Source: Mariprofundus sp.
Lineage (GTDB): Bacteria > Pseudomonadota > Zetaproteobacteria > Mariprofundales > Mariprofundaceae
Length of the DNA stretch: 64,000 nucleotides
Direction: 5' to 3'
Assembly (NCBI GenBank): GCA_021772775.1
Contig: JAJFLH010000039.1
Coordinates: 62,001-126,000 of the forward strand
Shown here: positions 14,262 through 48,529 of the stretch, one piece after another
Layout: every line of letters starts with the position of its first letter
Numbering within the stretch: position 1 is the first letter of the stretch
Notes under the pieces: model-generated
What the model was told of the DNA's origin: nothing
The model's input: the letters and a program-made list of their open reading frames with translations, nothing else
Database searches by the model: none
Made by a program: the position numbers and the translations under genes

Positions 14262-15080
14262 TTACACTTTAGGCATTACTCTTGAAGAGCTAAAGCACAA
14301 AATGAAATCAGCTGGCAACATACGCTTAAGCTGAGCAATAAACACCACCAGAAACAAACTAATGCCCAGCATTTCAAGAAACTCCTCCAGAGATCTGGCA
14401 AAATGATCAACCGTATAACTCTCAAGCAGATAAGTTTGTTTGAACCAACTATATACGTTGAAGGCGTGTTCCTCCGATAAACCTTCAATAAAATCAAGCA
14501 ACACAGCGCAAGCAAGAGAGCAGAACGCCACCAGAACCAACAATAAAGAACGTTTATCTGAACCTAAAGCCCGCCAAAGAAACCAGAGCATAAACACCCC
14601 CATCAGCACGAAAAATGGCAGTAATAACTGCCACTCGTAACTGGGAAACACCGCCATCCATTGTGCCAAAGCACCACTGCCATCCACCTTATCGGCCTCA
14701 AGCATCTCTTCAAACATCGAACCCATGCGCTCATGAATAAGCGCCCCATCATCAGCTGACATATAGGTAAAAAACAGTGCCATGAGCAACCAGCCCCTAC
14801 GATCAAGGGCAGCCACCCCATCAATATGATGACTCAGGCCGTAAATAAACCACAGGATCAAGGCTGCCAACAAGGTTTGCGAAGTCATAAACCAACCTGC
14901 AAGTCCATCTTCTCTGGCAATATTAAAAAGCTCGTGGATCGAGCTGTACTGAATGACTTCAAAGTAATTGATCACAATATCGAGAACAACAAACAGCAAC
15001 TCAAAACAGACCAGTACCAACAACAGTCTTTTACTTAAATGATCCGCATCCACGATCAAACGGCGCTGCTCACTCATCAT
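14262..15080 (-). CDS. Multipass inner-membrane protein of unknown function
   Basis: A 272-residue protein with about six hydrophobic segments (near residues 20-40, 62-85, 95-112, 148-170, 180-200 and 238-258). I do not recognise a named family. Charged residues are clustered next to membrane segments: SADDGALIHERMGSMFEE after segment 3, DFIEGLSEEH after segment 5 and SLEEFLEMLG before the last. This recurring Asp/Glu/His pattern could bind metal, but that is speculation. It converges on rhlB and lies 149 bases downstream of the secreted repeat-protein gene, with a terminator between them, so it is probably transcribed on its own. Confidence 0.8.
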   Translation of the reverse strand: MMSEQRRLIVDADHLSKRLLLVLVCFELLFVVLDIVINYFEVIQYSSIHELFNIAREDGLAGWFMTSQTLLAALILWFIYGLSHHIDGVAALDRRGWLLMALFFTYMSADDGALIHERMGSMFEEMLEADKVDGSGALAQWMAVFPSYEWQLLLPFFVLMGVFMLWFLWRALGSDKRSLLLVLVAFCSLACAVLLDFIEGLSEEHAFNVYSWFKQTYLLESYTVDHFARSLEEFLEMLGISLFLVVFIAQLKRMLPADFILCFSSSRVMPKV

Positions 15081-15166
15081 AAAACTCCCTAGTCAGACAA
15101 AATACTATGACTTAAAACAGATCATTGCCCTTAGTAACATCCAAAGCAGATAGCCCCCCTAGCTCT

Positions 15167-15206
15167 AAAAAAACGGCGCCTTACCCTCTAAAGGAAAGAC
15201 GCCGTT
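15167..15206 (-). terminator. Rho-independent terminator of the repeat-protein gene
   Basis: On the minus strand a 7-bp stem AACGGCG/CGCCGTT (with further pairing CCTT/AAGG inside) is followed by seven T. It lies 24 bases after the stop of the 15230-15946 gene. Confidence 0.8.
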
Positions 15207-15229: not shown

Positions 15230-15946
15230 TCAGTCACCCATGATTTCACGATGAGAGGAGGAAGCCCCTCCAGAAACACCCGGATTTGGATCACCTGGAG
15301 TACCATCGGCACAAGTACAAACGCATACACCTAACGGGCAAACACAACTTGGAATATTCGTGCATGCGCCCAATGTATCGCCATGCGCCTGATGAGCCGG
15401 CCAGGCAGATGTGCTCACAGTAATTGTAACTGTCTTATTCGGCGTGCAGCTAGAGTTGGACTTGCTGTCTGACTCGGACTTGCTGTCTGACTCGGACTTG
15501 CTGTCTGACTCGGACTTGCTGTCTGACTTGGACTTACTATCTGACTCGGACTTGCTGTCTGACTTGGACTTACTATCTGACTTGGACTTACTATCTGACT
15601 TGGACTTACTATCTGACTTGGACTTACTATCTGACTTGGACTTACTATCTGACTCGGACTTACTATCTGACTTGGACTTACTATCTGACTTGGACTTACT
15701 ATCTGACTCGGACTTGCTGTCTGACTTGGACTTACTATCTGACTCGGACTTGCTGTCTGACTTGGATGTATCATGGCAGATAGTTACTTTATCCGCCCCA
15801 TGATCTTCTGATTTGGATTCATGATCGGACTCATTATCTGATTCGGCATATGCCGATGAAACATTCAGACTAATCATTCCCGATTCACTACTGAACGCAA
15901 ACGTCAGTAACGCTGCAAAAAAGATCACCAATGCACTGTTTTTCAT
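15230..15946 (-). CDS. Secreted Ser/Asp/Lys/Glu-repeat protein with split CH...HGD motif
   Basis: A 238-residue exported protein. A signal peptide (about residues 1-34, ending in a SAYAES-type site) is followed by an acidic stretch. Then comes DKVTICH, a block of 17 six-residue units (SDSKSE or SDSKSK, about residues 63-164), and KTVTITVSTSAWPAHQAHGD with LGAC. The C-terminus is Cys-rich (CTNIPSCVCPLGVCVCTC) and ends in a Gly/Ser tail. I recall VTICH...TITVS..A..AH..HGD..G.C as a recurrent motif of bacterial secreted proteins, normally with only a short gap between its halves. Here the repeat sits in that gap. The clustered Cys and His suggest metal binding or disulfides; function unknown. 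A clear terminator follows. Confidence 0.85.
   Translation of the reverse strand: MKNSALVIFFAALLTFAFSSESGMISLNVSSAYAESDNESDHESKSEDHGADKVTICHDTSKSDSKSESDSKSKSDSKSESDSKSKSDSKSKSDSKSESDSKSKSDSKSKSDSKSKSDSKSKSDSKSKSDSKSESDSKSKSDSKSESDSKSESDSKSESDSKSNSSCTPNKTVTITVSTSAWPAHQAHGDTLGACTNIPSCVCPLGVCVCTCADGTPGDPNPGVSGGASSSHREIMGD
15455..15760 (-). repeat. 17 tandem 18-bp coding repeats
   Basis: Direct 18-base units encode the hexamer SDSKS(K/E/N). Two main variants alternate irregularly, differing in the synonymous Ser/Ser choice (TTACTA against TTGCTG) and in the K/E codon. This looks like expansion from older mixed units. In-frame copy-number change is possible by slippage without breaking the reading frame. 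Confidence 0.92.
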
Positions 15947-45881: not shown

Positions 45882-47045
45882 TTAACTCCCATCACCCTCA
45901 TACAAAATCATCCACGGCTCAACACCACTTTTTCGAGCCATATACAATTGCTTGCGACTGCTTGCATTAAAATTACTGGATTGATAGCGCTGTTTAAATA
46001 TCACCAGCACCGCCTCTCCACCCTGGAACGGTTCAGCACTTGGGATTATCTTTATCTCGGAAAGATCAACATTGATATATGATTTTTTGCCATTCACTCG
46101 ACGTTTATATTTTACCCATGAGTTATAATCATGTTTCAATGTTTTAAAGGCTTGATGATAGTGACTCAAATAAGCCGCACTATCACGAGATTCCCAATCG
46201 CTGCGCCACGCCTCAATCGCCTTATGAACAGATTGAGACAGTGACTCTTTACTCGCCGATGTGGAGGAAGCCAGCGTTGATTTCACCTTCGCGCGCTTCA
46301 CTTGCGCGGGTTTTGGTCTCTTTTCTATCTCCTTAATCGGAAAAACTTCAATTGGTCGCAACTTGGCAAGTTTTAACTTCACCGGTTTTGGTTCAACAAC
46401 ATTCACAACAATCGGTTGAGAAACTTCAACAACAGATTTAGGCAGAGCAGTTACAGTTGGCTTGGGACGGGGGAGCTTAACAGGCTGAACAACAACGGTC
46501 TGCTTTGGAACACCCGGCCGAACAGGCTGCGTTTTAGCCACAAGTTGCGGAGACCGAACACGCTCAGTTACAGCAGGTTCATGAACCACTGGCTTCGACA
46601 AGCGCGCTTTTGGAGCATTTAATTTTACGATAAAGAGATCCAGGCGCCTATTCGCCTCATCTAAACCGGCAGTGATGCGCGCCTCTTTCAGCACACCAAT
46701 ATCTTCATCCACAGCATGAGCATAACGGCCTGCACGATCAGCCGCCTGAACTGACTGTCTGCGATAAGCTTCCGCCCTCATCAAAGCCGCCAAACGATTA
46801 TCCTTCACGACATCCGTTGTTAAAAAGCCTAGCGCCTGTTTGGTTTCCCCTTGATTCATAGCGATAGTCGCAAGAAGGATTTCCCTCTCCCCCACCGCAA
46901 GAGACTGCACTAGCGGTCTCTTCGCTGATTTGAGCAATTGATAAACATCCTGCTGATTCATTCGACTCGCCGTAGCATCTGTCACCATCAAAGGCATCAA
47001 AAGCCAGATCAATAGCCATACATATTTCATCTGATTTTTTTTCAT
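45882..47045 (-). CDS. Exported protein with Pro/Lys/Val-rich linker and NTF2-like (Cds6-type) C-terminal domain
   Basis: A 387-residue protein with a signal peptide (about residues 6-25, ending in TDATA). A helical region (27-150) resembles TPR-like repeats. A long linker of Lys, Pro and Val (about 150-265) would span the periplasm. The C-terminal domain (about 268-387) reads AIEAWRSDWESRDSAAYLSHY, SWVKYKRRVNGKKSYINVDL, FKQRYQSSNFNASSRKQLY and EPWMILYEG, matching the NTF2-like domain found on Cds6 and on L,D-transpeptidases. The ATG at 47045 overlaps the upstream peptidase stop (TGATG). A joint role in the cell wall is likely but inferred. Confidence 0.82.
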   Translation of the reverse strand: MKKNQMKYVWLLIWLLMPLMVTDATASRMNQQDVYQLLKSAKRPLVQSLAVGEREILLATIAMNQGETKQALGFLTTDVVKDNRLAALMRAEAYRRQSVQAADRAGRYAHAVDEDIGVLKEARITAGLDEANRRLDLFIVKLNAPKARLSKPVVHEPAVTERVRSPQLVAKTQPVRPGVPKQTVVVQPVKLPRPKPTVTALPKSVVEVSQPIVVNVVEPKPVKLKLAKLRPIEVFPIKEIEKRPKPAQVKRAKVKSTLASSTSASKESLSQSVHKAIEAWRSDWESRDSAAYLSHYHQAFKTLKHDYNSWVKYKRRVNGKKSYINVDLSEIKIIPSAEPFQGGEAVLVIFKQRYQSSNFNASSRKQLYMARKSGVEPWMILYEGDGS

Positions 47046-48529
47046 CAATCAATGTCCAAACTGTTAACGCTCACCACAGAGCTCTGTCTATTCCCAGTGA
47101 TCGGCATAGCCTCTATCTCTGCCACTTCCTGCTTAGTCAAACGAGGTGAAGCCAACAACGCTTCTGAAATCTGTTCAAATTCTGGATAGGCATCCACAGT
47201 CACCGGATTGGGAATATTGTGACGCAACCAGCCCACCAGATCCATCCACATACTGGAAATTTCATCTTGACTCGGCATCGCTCCAGCCGAAGGAAGCTCC
47301 ACAGTAATCACTGGAATATGATGTTGATTACCTGCCGAATTCCCCAATGAGCCGGGATATGCACCGAGCAATTTCAAATGGAGTTGACCAATTTTATTTG
47401 GAGCATCTGGAGGCCCGTCAAAATCCAGCAGACCATAAGGCGCATGCACCGAAATAATCACATCGGGTTTAAATGTACGAATCTCTTCATATAACCAGCT
47501 GCTTTCAGGCTCACTTAATGGGGCGGTGCCCGGATAGCGACGAGGATCTTTGCCTGTCTCATGCCAATAAATCGCTGTTTTTTTATACCAGTCTGGCGTC
47601 GGCATATTACGATTTAGATCAACACCATGGGCATTCAGACGCACCGCAGGACTACTCAATAATAGACCATCCGGATTAAGCAGTGGCAAGACATGCCAGT
47701 GAAAAAGACCCGAATGATACTTATCCAGTGTCTGCATCCATTTGAACACGACACTCACAGAGGAGTATTCATCACCATGCGTGCCACCAAGCAACAGCAC
47801 TCGACCAATAGGTTTGCGCTTCTCCAGCAGCGGCGGATACTCTTTTATCAATATCGCCTGCCCTTTCACCGAGCGAGCGCCTGAATCTGAGAACTGACTA
47901 TCCAAACAGCTATTAACAGTGACACTACTCAGTTTATTGCCTATACGCGTGCACTCTTCCGCGACCAGCTTTTGACCCTCTTCAGCTTTGCTTGCTTCGG
48001 TTTTGTCTACTTCAGCTTTCTCTGCTTTGGCCTTCCCTGCTTCAACCTTCCCTGCTTCAACCTTCTCTGCTTCAGCTTTCTCTGCTTCAGCTTTCTCTGC
48101 TTCAGCCTTCTCTGCTTCAGCTTTCTCTGCTTCAGCTTTCTCTGCTTCAGCCTTCTCTGCTTCAGCTTTCTCTGCTTCAGCTTTCTCTGCTTTGGCTTTC
48201 TCTGCTTTGGCTTTCTCTGCTTTGGCTTTCTCTGCTTTGGCTTTCTCTGCTTTGGCTTTCTCTGCTTTGGCTTTCTCTGCTTTGGCTTTCTCTGCTTTGG
48301 CTTTCTCTGCTTTGGCTTTTTCGGATTCAATTTCGCCGGATTCAATTTCGCCTGATTCAGACTTGTCGGCTTCAGTTTTTCTTATCTCAGCTATGGAGCC
48401 TTCGCCCCCCTTGTTGATGGCCTTGTTGGCCAACGGGGAGCCCACACCACAAGACGACATCAGCATGCATATCGAAATAAGGCAGAGAGAAAATGAAAAG
48501 GAACGCGTGGAAACAAACTGAGTCGGCAT
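47045..48529 (-). CDS. Lipoprotein with Lys/Ala/Glu repeat stalk and M14-type zinc peptidase domain (MpaA-like)
   Basis: A 494-residue protein. The N-terminus has a hydrophobic signal and lipobox (MLMSSC, Cys 27), so it is probably membrane-anchored. A stalk of 17 perfect or near-perfect AKAEK/AEAEK pentads and flanking degenerate copies forms a predicted single long helix (about residues 62-190). The catalytic domain resembles the murein-peptide amidase MpaA: zinc ligands in LLGGTHGDEYSS and SVHAPYG, Arg and Asn in NAHGVDLNRNMP, and the catalytic Glu in ITVELPSAG. Unlike MpaA, which is cytoplasmic, this one is exported, so it may trim peptidoglycan peptides in the periplasm. It overlaps the next gene by one base. 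Confidence 0.85.
   Translation of the reverse strand: MPTQFVSTRSFSFSLCLISICMLMSSCGVGSPLANKAINKGGEGSIAEIRKTEADKSESGEIESGEIESEKAKAEKAKAEKAKAEKAKAEKAKAEKAKAEKAKAEKAKAEKAKAEKAEAEKAEAEKAEAEKAEAEKAEAEKAEAEKAEAEKAEAEKVEAGKVEAGKAKAEKAEVDKTEASKAEEGQKLVAEECTRIGNKLSSVTVNSCLDSQFSDSGARSVKGQAILIKEYPPLLEKRKPIGRVLLLGGTHGDEYSSVSVVFKWMQTLDKYHSGLFHWHVLPLLNPDGLLLSSPAVRLNAHGVDLNRNMPTPDWYKKTAIYWHETGKDPRRYPGTAPLSEPESSWLYEEIRTFKPDVIISVHAPYGLLDFDGPPDAPNKIGQLHLKLLGAYPGSLGNSAGNQHHIPVITVELPSAGAMPSQDEISSMWMDLVGWLRHNIPNPVTVDAYPEFEQISEALLASPRLTKQEVAEIEAMPITGNRQSSVVSVNSLDID
48062..48316 (-). repeat. 17 tandem 15-bp coding repeats
   Basis: Eight units encoding AEAEK are followed (in + coordinates) by nine encoding AKAEK, each unit 15 bases. 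Homogeneity inside each block suggests recent expansion. Because 15 is a multiple of three, slippage changes stalk length without breaking the frame. The repeat keeps several other frames open on both strands. Confidence 0.93.

Follow-up and report, generated by a model that had tools for sequence, protein, structure and literature searches.

The open reading frame at positions 15230 to 15946 (minus strand) of the window, i.e., the whole 64,000-nucleotide stretch of Mariprofundus sp. DNA that was analyzed, raises the question of whether two short Cys- and His-containing motifs held apart by a long tandem repeat belong to one domain, and what a protein built in this way might do. The reading frame encodes 238 amino acids, starts with ATG, and is preceded by a strong ribosome-binding site (AGAGGAG). 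In its product, here called the window protein, a Sec signal peptide is followed by an AYA/E cleavage site at residues 34/35. Identity as a type IV pilin was considered and rejected: a Pfam scan of the window protein gave no N_methyl or PilX_N match and revealed no prepilin N-terminal methylation motif, and the protein has the AYA/E signal peptide instead. The features of the gene and its surroundings are the following.

15845 to 15946, minus strand: Sec signal peptide, residues 1 to 34 (...SSAYA/E; MKNS.LVIFFAALLTFAFSS), common to relatives; seen in sequence and alignment and as helix 2 to 21 in the model
15773 to 15790, minus strand: first half of the module, strand 1, KVTICH, residues 53 to 58, with C57 and H58 invariant (alignment, AlphaFold)
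15455 to 15760, minus strand: 17 hexapeptide units SDSKS[K/E/N], residues 63 to 164, a disordered loop out of the hairpin turn (TRF, model, unit analysis)
15446 to 15448, minus strand: Cys167 at the loop base, present only in the long-loop clade with its five members (family alignment)
15362 to 15433, minus strand: second module half, comprising strand 2 (172 to 178) and helix (179 to 187), with H185, H188, G189, D190, and C195 (alignment, model)
15293 to 15346, minus strand: Cys-rich tail CVCPLGVCVCTCADGTPG, residues 201 to 218, with one more Cys than in compact sisters (alignment)
15233 to 15250, minus strand: C-terminal tag REIMGD; consensus in the class R[ESTNQ][IVL]x[GS][QKNRED] (40 of 46 class members)
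15166 to 15206, minus strand: terminator-like element with arms AACGGCG and CGCCGTT, a loop of about 21 nucleotides, and then a T tract (read by eye)
14262 to 15080, minus strand: 272-residue polytopic membrane protein, the conserved partner directly downstream on the same strand (genome comparison)

The terminator-like element separates the window gene from its partner; a terminator scan at this site returned only a weak overlapping site, and Rfam gave no match near the window gene.

The two motifs form a module with the pattern CHxPPGNPxNxxT[IL]x[VI]...AH[LQ]AHGDxxGxC, which occurs in an exported context. A search of genome contigs found 120 relatives of this CH/HGD module, and 78 loci were kept; the phyla represented include Bacteroidota, Planctomycetota, Myxococcota, Fibrobacterota, Gemmatimonadota, and Pseudomonadota, among others. 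The compact motif that the earlier note had described is real, as CH lies 6 to 19 residues before the Ala of A..H..HGD in all 184 outside copies at these 78 loci (exactly 17 residues in 140 of them). The corresponding distance in the window protein is 122 residues and departs from the usual value of about 17; congeners bridge it with 29 to 99 residues, so that the spacing is typical of the module rather than defining, and the window protein is a variant. C57, H58, H185, H188, G189, D190, and C195 are invariant in the alignment with the window protein (92 sequences), and all seven are kept across its insert. Halves occurring independently, for which the earlier note had asked as evidence against its own reading, were sought and none was found: 151 of 153 CH halves are accompanied by an HGD half, and the remaining two are cut at a contig end. 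The CH/HGD module is a recurrent exported domain of many phyla without a name or catalogue entry among the databases searched. No module family is present in Pfam, NCBIfam, or PHROGs, a PDB sequence search with the module gave no convincing match, Foldseek/VIA searches with the compact model reached a best VIA Z of 2.9 (a fold of 52 residues is hard to search), and a full-text literature search for the motif letters returned unrelated words only. Elsewhere, CH/HGD modules are frequent in exported proteins that have no connection with pili.

AlphaFold was used to predict the structures of a compact relative and of the intact window protein, repeat included. The compact relative (pLDDT 84) consists of a strand (residues 5 to 10), a second strand (20 to 25), and a helix (26 to 34). 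The β-hairpin-plus-helix fold of the module is likewise predicted for the window protein, where strand 53 to 59 pairs with strand 172 to 178 and is followed by helix 179 to 187; these blocks have pLDDT values of 92 to 95, although the alignment given to the predictor for this protein already encodes the gap, which helps the halves to pack. The repeat has a pLDDT of approximately 45 and appears disordered. Since the two strands flank the repeat and the fold is the same as in the compact relative, the insert sits in the hairpin turn, which comprises approximately 112 residues in the window protein versus about 7 in the compact module. The proposal of the earlier note that the halves make up one domain from which the repeat is thrown out as a loop is thus borne out by the seven retained invariants, by the packing of the halves in the model, by the likeness of the compact relative, and by orthologues with loops of intermediate length. 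The folded part would be a CH/HGD module of approximately 40 residues, in which a hairpin of two strands is joined by a short helix. A disulfide between Cys57 and Cys195 probably holds the module together, and its His/Asp cluster is a candidate metal site that may bind metal.

At the DNA level, TRF reports a tandem array at positions 15456 to 15766 with a period of 18, 17.3 copies, 92% matches, and a score of 475, and with such values over 17.3 copies the array is not a product of chance. The count of 17 hexamers given in the earlier note stands, with the correction that SDSKS(K/E) describes 16 of them, the 17th unit being SDSKSN. The 17 units comprise only four different 18-mers, and their three variable sites are mostly linked, units with C/C/G encoding E and units with T/T/A encoding K; so few types with linked variants indicate that whole units were duplicated recently. 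Such recent duplication has probably replaced a turn of about 7 residues with a disordered Ser/Lys/Asp polyampholyte of approximately 112 residues that is tethered at both ends. The loop is Ser-rich and nearly neutral, with 27 K/R versus 25 D/E residues. Other repeat proteins were observed in the same genome: L006 and L008 (contigs C11 and C9) are long AEAKAKAE/ARAKALAE repeat proteins, and a lipoprotein-like reading frame of 494 residues in the window (47045 to 48529, minus strand) contains approximately 22 EKAKA/EKAEA pentapeptides (repeat at 47980 to 48312), which precede a part with a GGTHGDEYSS stretch resembling an M14-type peptidase.

Congeners provide a natural series of loop lengths. 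CH-to-Ala distances of 122 (window protein), 90 (genome G009), 98 (G006), 99 (G011), and 45 (G019) are found in proteins of one clade (support 100/96), and in the sister group from G001, G015, G016, and G020 the domains are compact and the same S/K/D tract precedes them on the N-terminal side. The loop was expanded separately in second domains of G012 (57), G008 (29), and G003 (57); among the congeners, the same hairpin turn is expanded at least three times. In the tree of the membrane partner, G019 clusters with G020, away from the other long-loop species, which reflects either early coexistence of both forms with differential loss or exchange. Each of the five long-loop proteins has a single Cys at the base of its loop and five in its tail (eight in total), and no other protein of the comparison table has a loop Cys. 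A disulfide between Cys167 and the extra tail Cys probably clamps the loop base; because the five long-loop proteins have a single evolutionary origin, the Cys correlation is suggestive of such a bond and goes no further. The genome of the window also encodes two further compact members, on C28 (without a repeat) and C22, and a third with an ESDNDN repeat ahead of a compact domain, divided between one end of contig C16 and one end of contig C6. The matching repeat ends suggest that C16 and C6 hold one gene; L003 (C16 end) and L002 (C6 end) are assembly breaks within this ESDNDN/ESNNDN repeat gene, probably encoding a single CH/HGD protein. The natural series of loop lengths, all in the one hairpin turn and running from about 7 up to 112 residues, represents a ready test of insertion tolerance in a small disulfide fold.

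Whether the loop has a role at all has to be weighed. It might be neutral, replication slippage in Ser/Lys/Asp codons expanding positions that tolerate it, such as the hairpin turn, while the module works alike without the loop. The near-identity of the DNA units (4 types among 17), the variation of length and sequence between species, the N-terminal position of the same tract in sister proteins, and the similar low-complexity tracts elsewhere in the genome would all follow from this. We nevertheless regard neutrality as possible but somewhat unlikely, since total tract length remains at about 70 to 130 residues throughout the nine-protein group, whether the tract is N-terminal or in the loop, its Ser-rich composition of mixed charge is retained across species, and none of the five long-loop proteins has lost the Cys pair. 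In the reading preferred below, the loop would serve as a hydrated spacer or brush.

The C-terminal tag R[ESTNQ][IVL]x[GS][QKNRED] of the class is found in 0 of 70 CH/HGD reading frames outside it. A genome-wide sorting signal was considered and rejected: in the genome of the window, the RE form is present only in the window gene and RS-type matches are short non-genes, so the tag looks specific to the protein group of the window gene. The RE[IV]xG[QD] form may offer a common partner something to dock onto. Secreted proteins with the tag and without a CH/HGD domain were also observed (L165/L265 of G014, L197 of G023, L247 of G025, and L026), three of them in the slot behind pilX described below.

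The membrane protein encoded downstream matched no known family. Of 23 genomes of the genus, 9 encode it, each time next to a protein from one and the same group of nine; the outer contexts of the pair are of three kinds. Residues D110, H116, E117, E199, H226, E232, E233, and E236 are conserved in ten relatives and could constitute a candidate intramembrane metal site. The window gene and the membrane partner form a cassette, which several relatives carry within a type IV pilus operon, behind pilX. In G001, G015, G016, G019, and G020, the pair is located between pilX and pilM of this operon, which was identified by PilM, PilQ, N_methyl, and weak PilX_N matches. Across 22 genomes, the slot behind pilX in the minor-pilin operon holds a CH/HGD protein in 13 and a tag-bearing cousin without CH/HGD in 3 (G014, G023, and G025), i.e., a group member in 16 of 22, preceded in a few of the 16 by one other small secreted gene. 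The exceptions are G022 and G024 as well as G000, G006, G009, and G011, in which a FadL-like gene occupies the slot and the cassette lies elsewhere. The window gene itself is outside the pilus operon, the pilX slot of its own genome containing a FadL-like gene, and together with its partner it is a relocated copy of the pilX-slot cassette.

Outside the class, G041 encodes between pilW and pilM a pilin that combines PilX_N, an acidic DNGKDND repeat, and CH/HGD, and fusions of the module to sequences of prepilin or pseudopilin type are found in two proteins from Planctomycetota and one from Omnitrophota (N_methyl, T2SSG, and N_methyl). In other Pseudomonadota, CH/HGD proteins (loci L297, L298, L299, and L293; genomes G057, G142, G168, and G171) combine the module with hydrophobic, pilin-like N termini and in some cases acidic repeats; Pfam gave no confirmation of a pilin for them. 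A membrane protein of 935 to 950 residues (ASGLAGISYEILYGR...; L237, L238, L240, L242, L243, and L266) was also observed near pilM or CH/HGD genes in several genomes.

The pilX slot could alternatively be a permissive cargo site whose CH/HGD genes are unrelated to pili, an explanation that we consider unlikely. That the slot also houses FadL-like genes, the 935- to 950-residue membrane protein, and other genes speaks for it, as does the persistence of the cassette when moved elsewhere; the recurrence of such a gene at this position in several genera, the fusion of PilX with CH/HGD in another class, and the fusions to prepilin-type N termini in Planctomycetota and Omnitrophota argue against it. 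With close relatives encoded in a type IV pilus operon, the window protein is probably a pilus-linked surface protein and not a proven iron binder. The reading that we prefer, and hold to have a somewhat better than even chance, is that this Sec-exported protein is an accessory of the type IV pilus system, located on the surface or associated with the tip, and that its disordered loop is tethered.

In Pseudomonas and Myxococcus, the gene for PilY1 accompanies those of the minor pilins, with which the protein forms a priming or tip complex (PMC5979040, PMC7541494). No PilY1 (PF05567) match was obtained in 23 genomes of the genus and 10 of the family or order; of 20 other genomes of the phylum, 7 had one. 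It is tempting, if rather doubtful, to suppose that in this class, where PilY1 is not detected, its place as the non-pilin tip partner of the minor pilins was taken by small proteins that carry CH/HGD, the tag, and a disordered charged tract, the window protein being a relocated version with the tract in the hairpin turn. For a group in which no PilY1 was found, the CH/HGD proteins offer a concrete candidate for the non-pilin component at the tip of type IV pili.

The earlier note had speculated that the repeat could bind mineral or metal, which would make the window protein a metal- or mineral-binding surface protein that, in an iron oxidizer, binds Fe minerals through its repeat. An extracellular location and the invariant Cys, His, and Asp residues would suit this role, and all kin in the class fall into one order, as we would expect for Zetaproteobacteria. 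We consider it improbable, however: the loop does not have the strong net negative charge of biomineral-binding acidic repeat proteins, the same tract is N-terminal in sister proteins, the module extends across many phyla with other lifestyles, and the gene context is pilus, not iron. With a near-neutral polyampholyte in this context, the mineral idea is unsupported. That CH and HGD are two separate motifs lying near each other by accident, as the 122-residue spacing might suggest, is scarcely credible and already contradicted by the seven invariants, both fold models, the lack of lone halves, and the intermediate loops of orthologues.

Compared with known systems, the window protein resembles the Ser-Asp repeat adhesins of the MSCRAMM type (ClfA, SdrC/D) in being exported and in its Ser-rich, charged, dipeptide-like repeat, and differs from them in having neither LPXTG nor an adhesin domain and in carrying the repeat inside a domain; Sdr/Clf identity was rejected, as the match is one of low complexity only and its score of 66 bits falls far short of the full-length family cut-off, 1150. 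PilX-type minor pilins are similar insofar as the G041 pilin combines an acidic repeat with the CH/HGD module, and they differ from the window protein in that the signal peptide of the latter is cleavable and a prepilin motif is lacking. With PilY1, a non-pilin of the type IVa minor-pilin operon, it shares export, non-pilin character, and relatives encoded behind pilX, but it is far smaller, has no PF05567 match in the Pfam scan, and is encoded outside the operon. From the unnamed CH/HGD module it deviates in its turn of approximately 112 residues instead of about 7 and in the Cys at the turn base, whereas all seven invariant residues, the predicted strand-strand-helix arrangement, and the exported context are the same.
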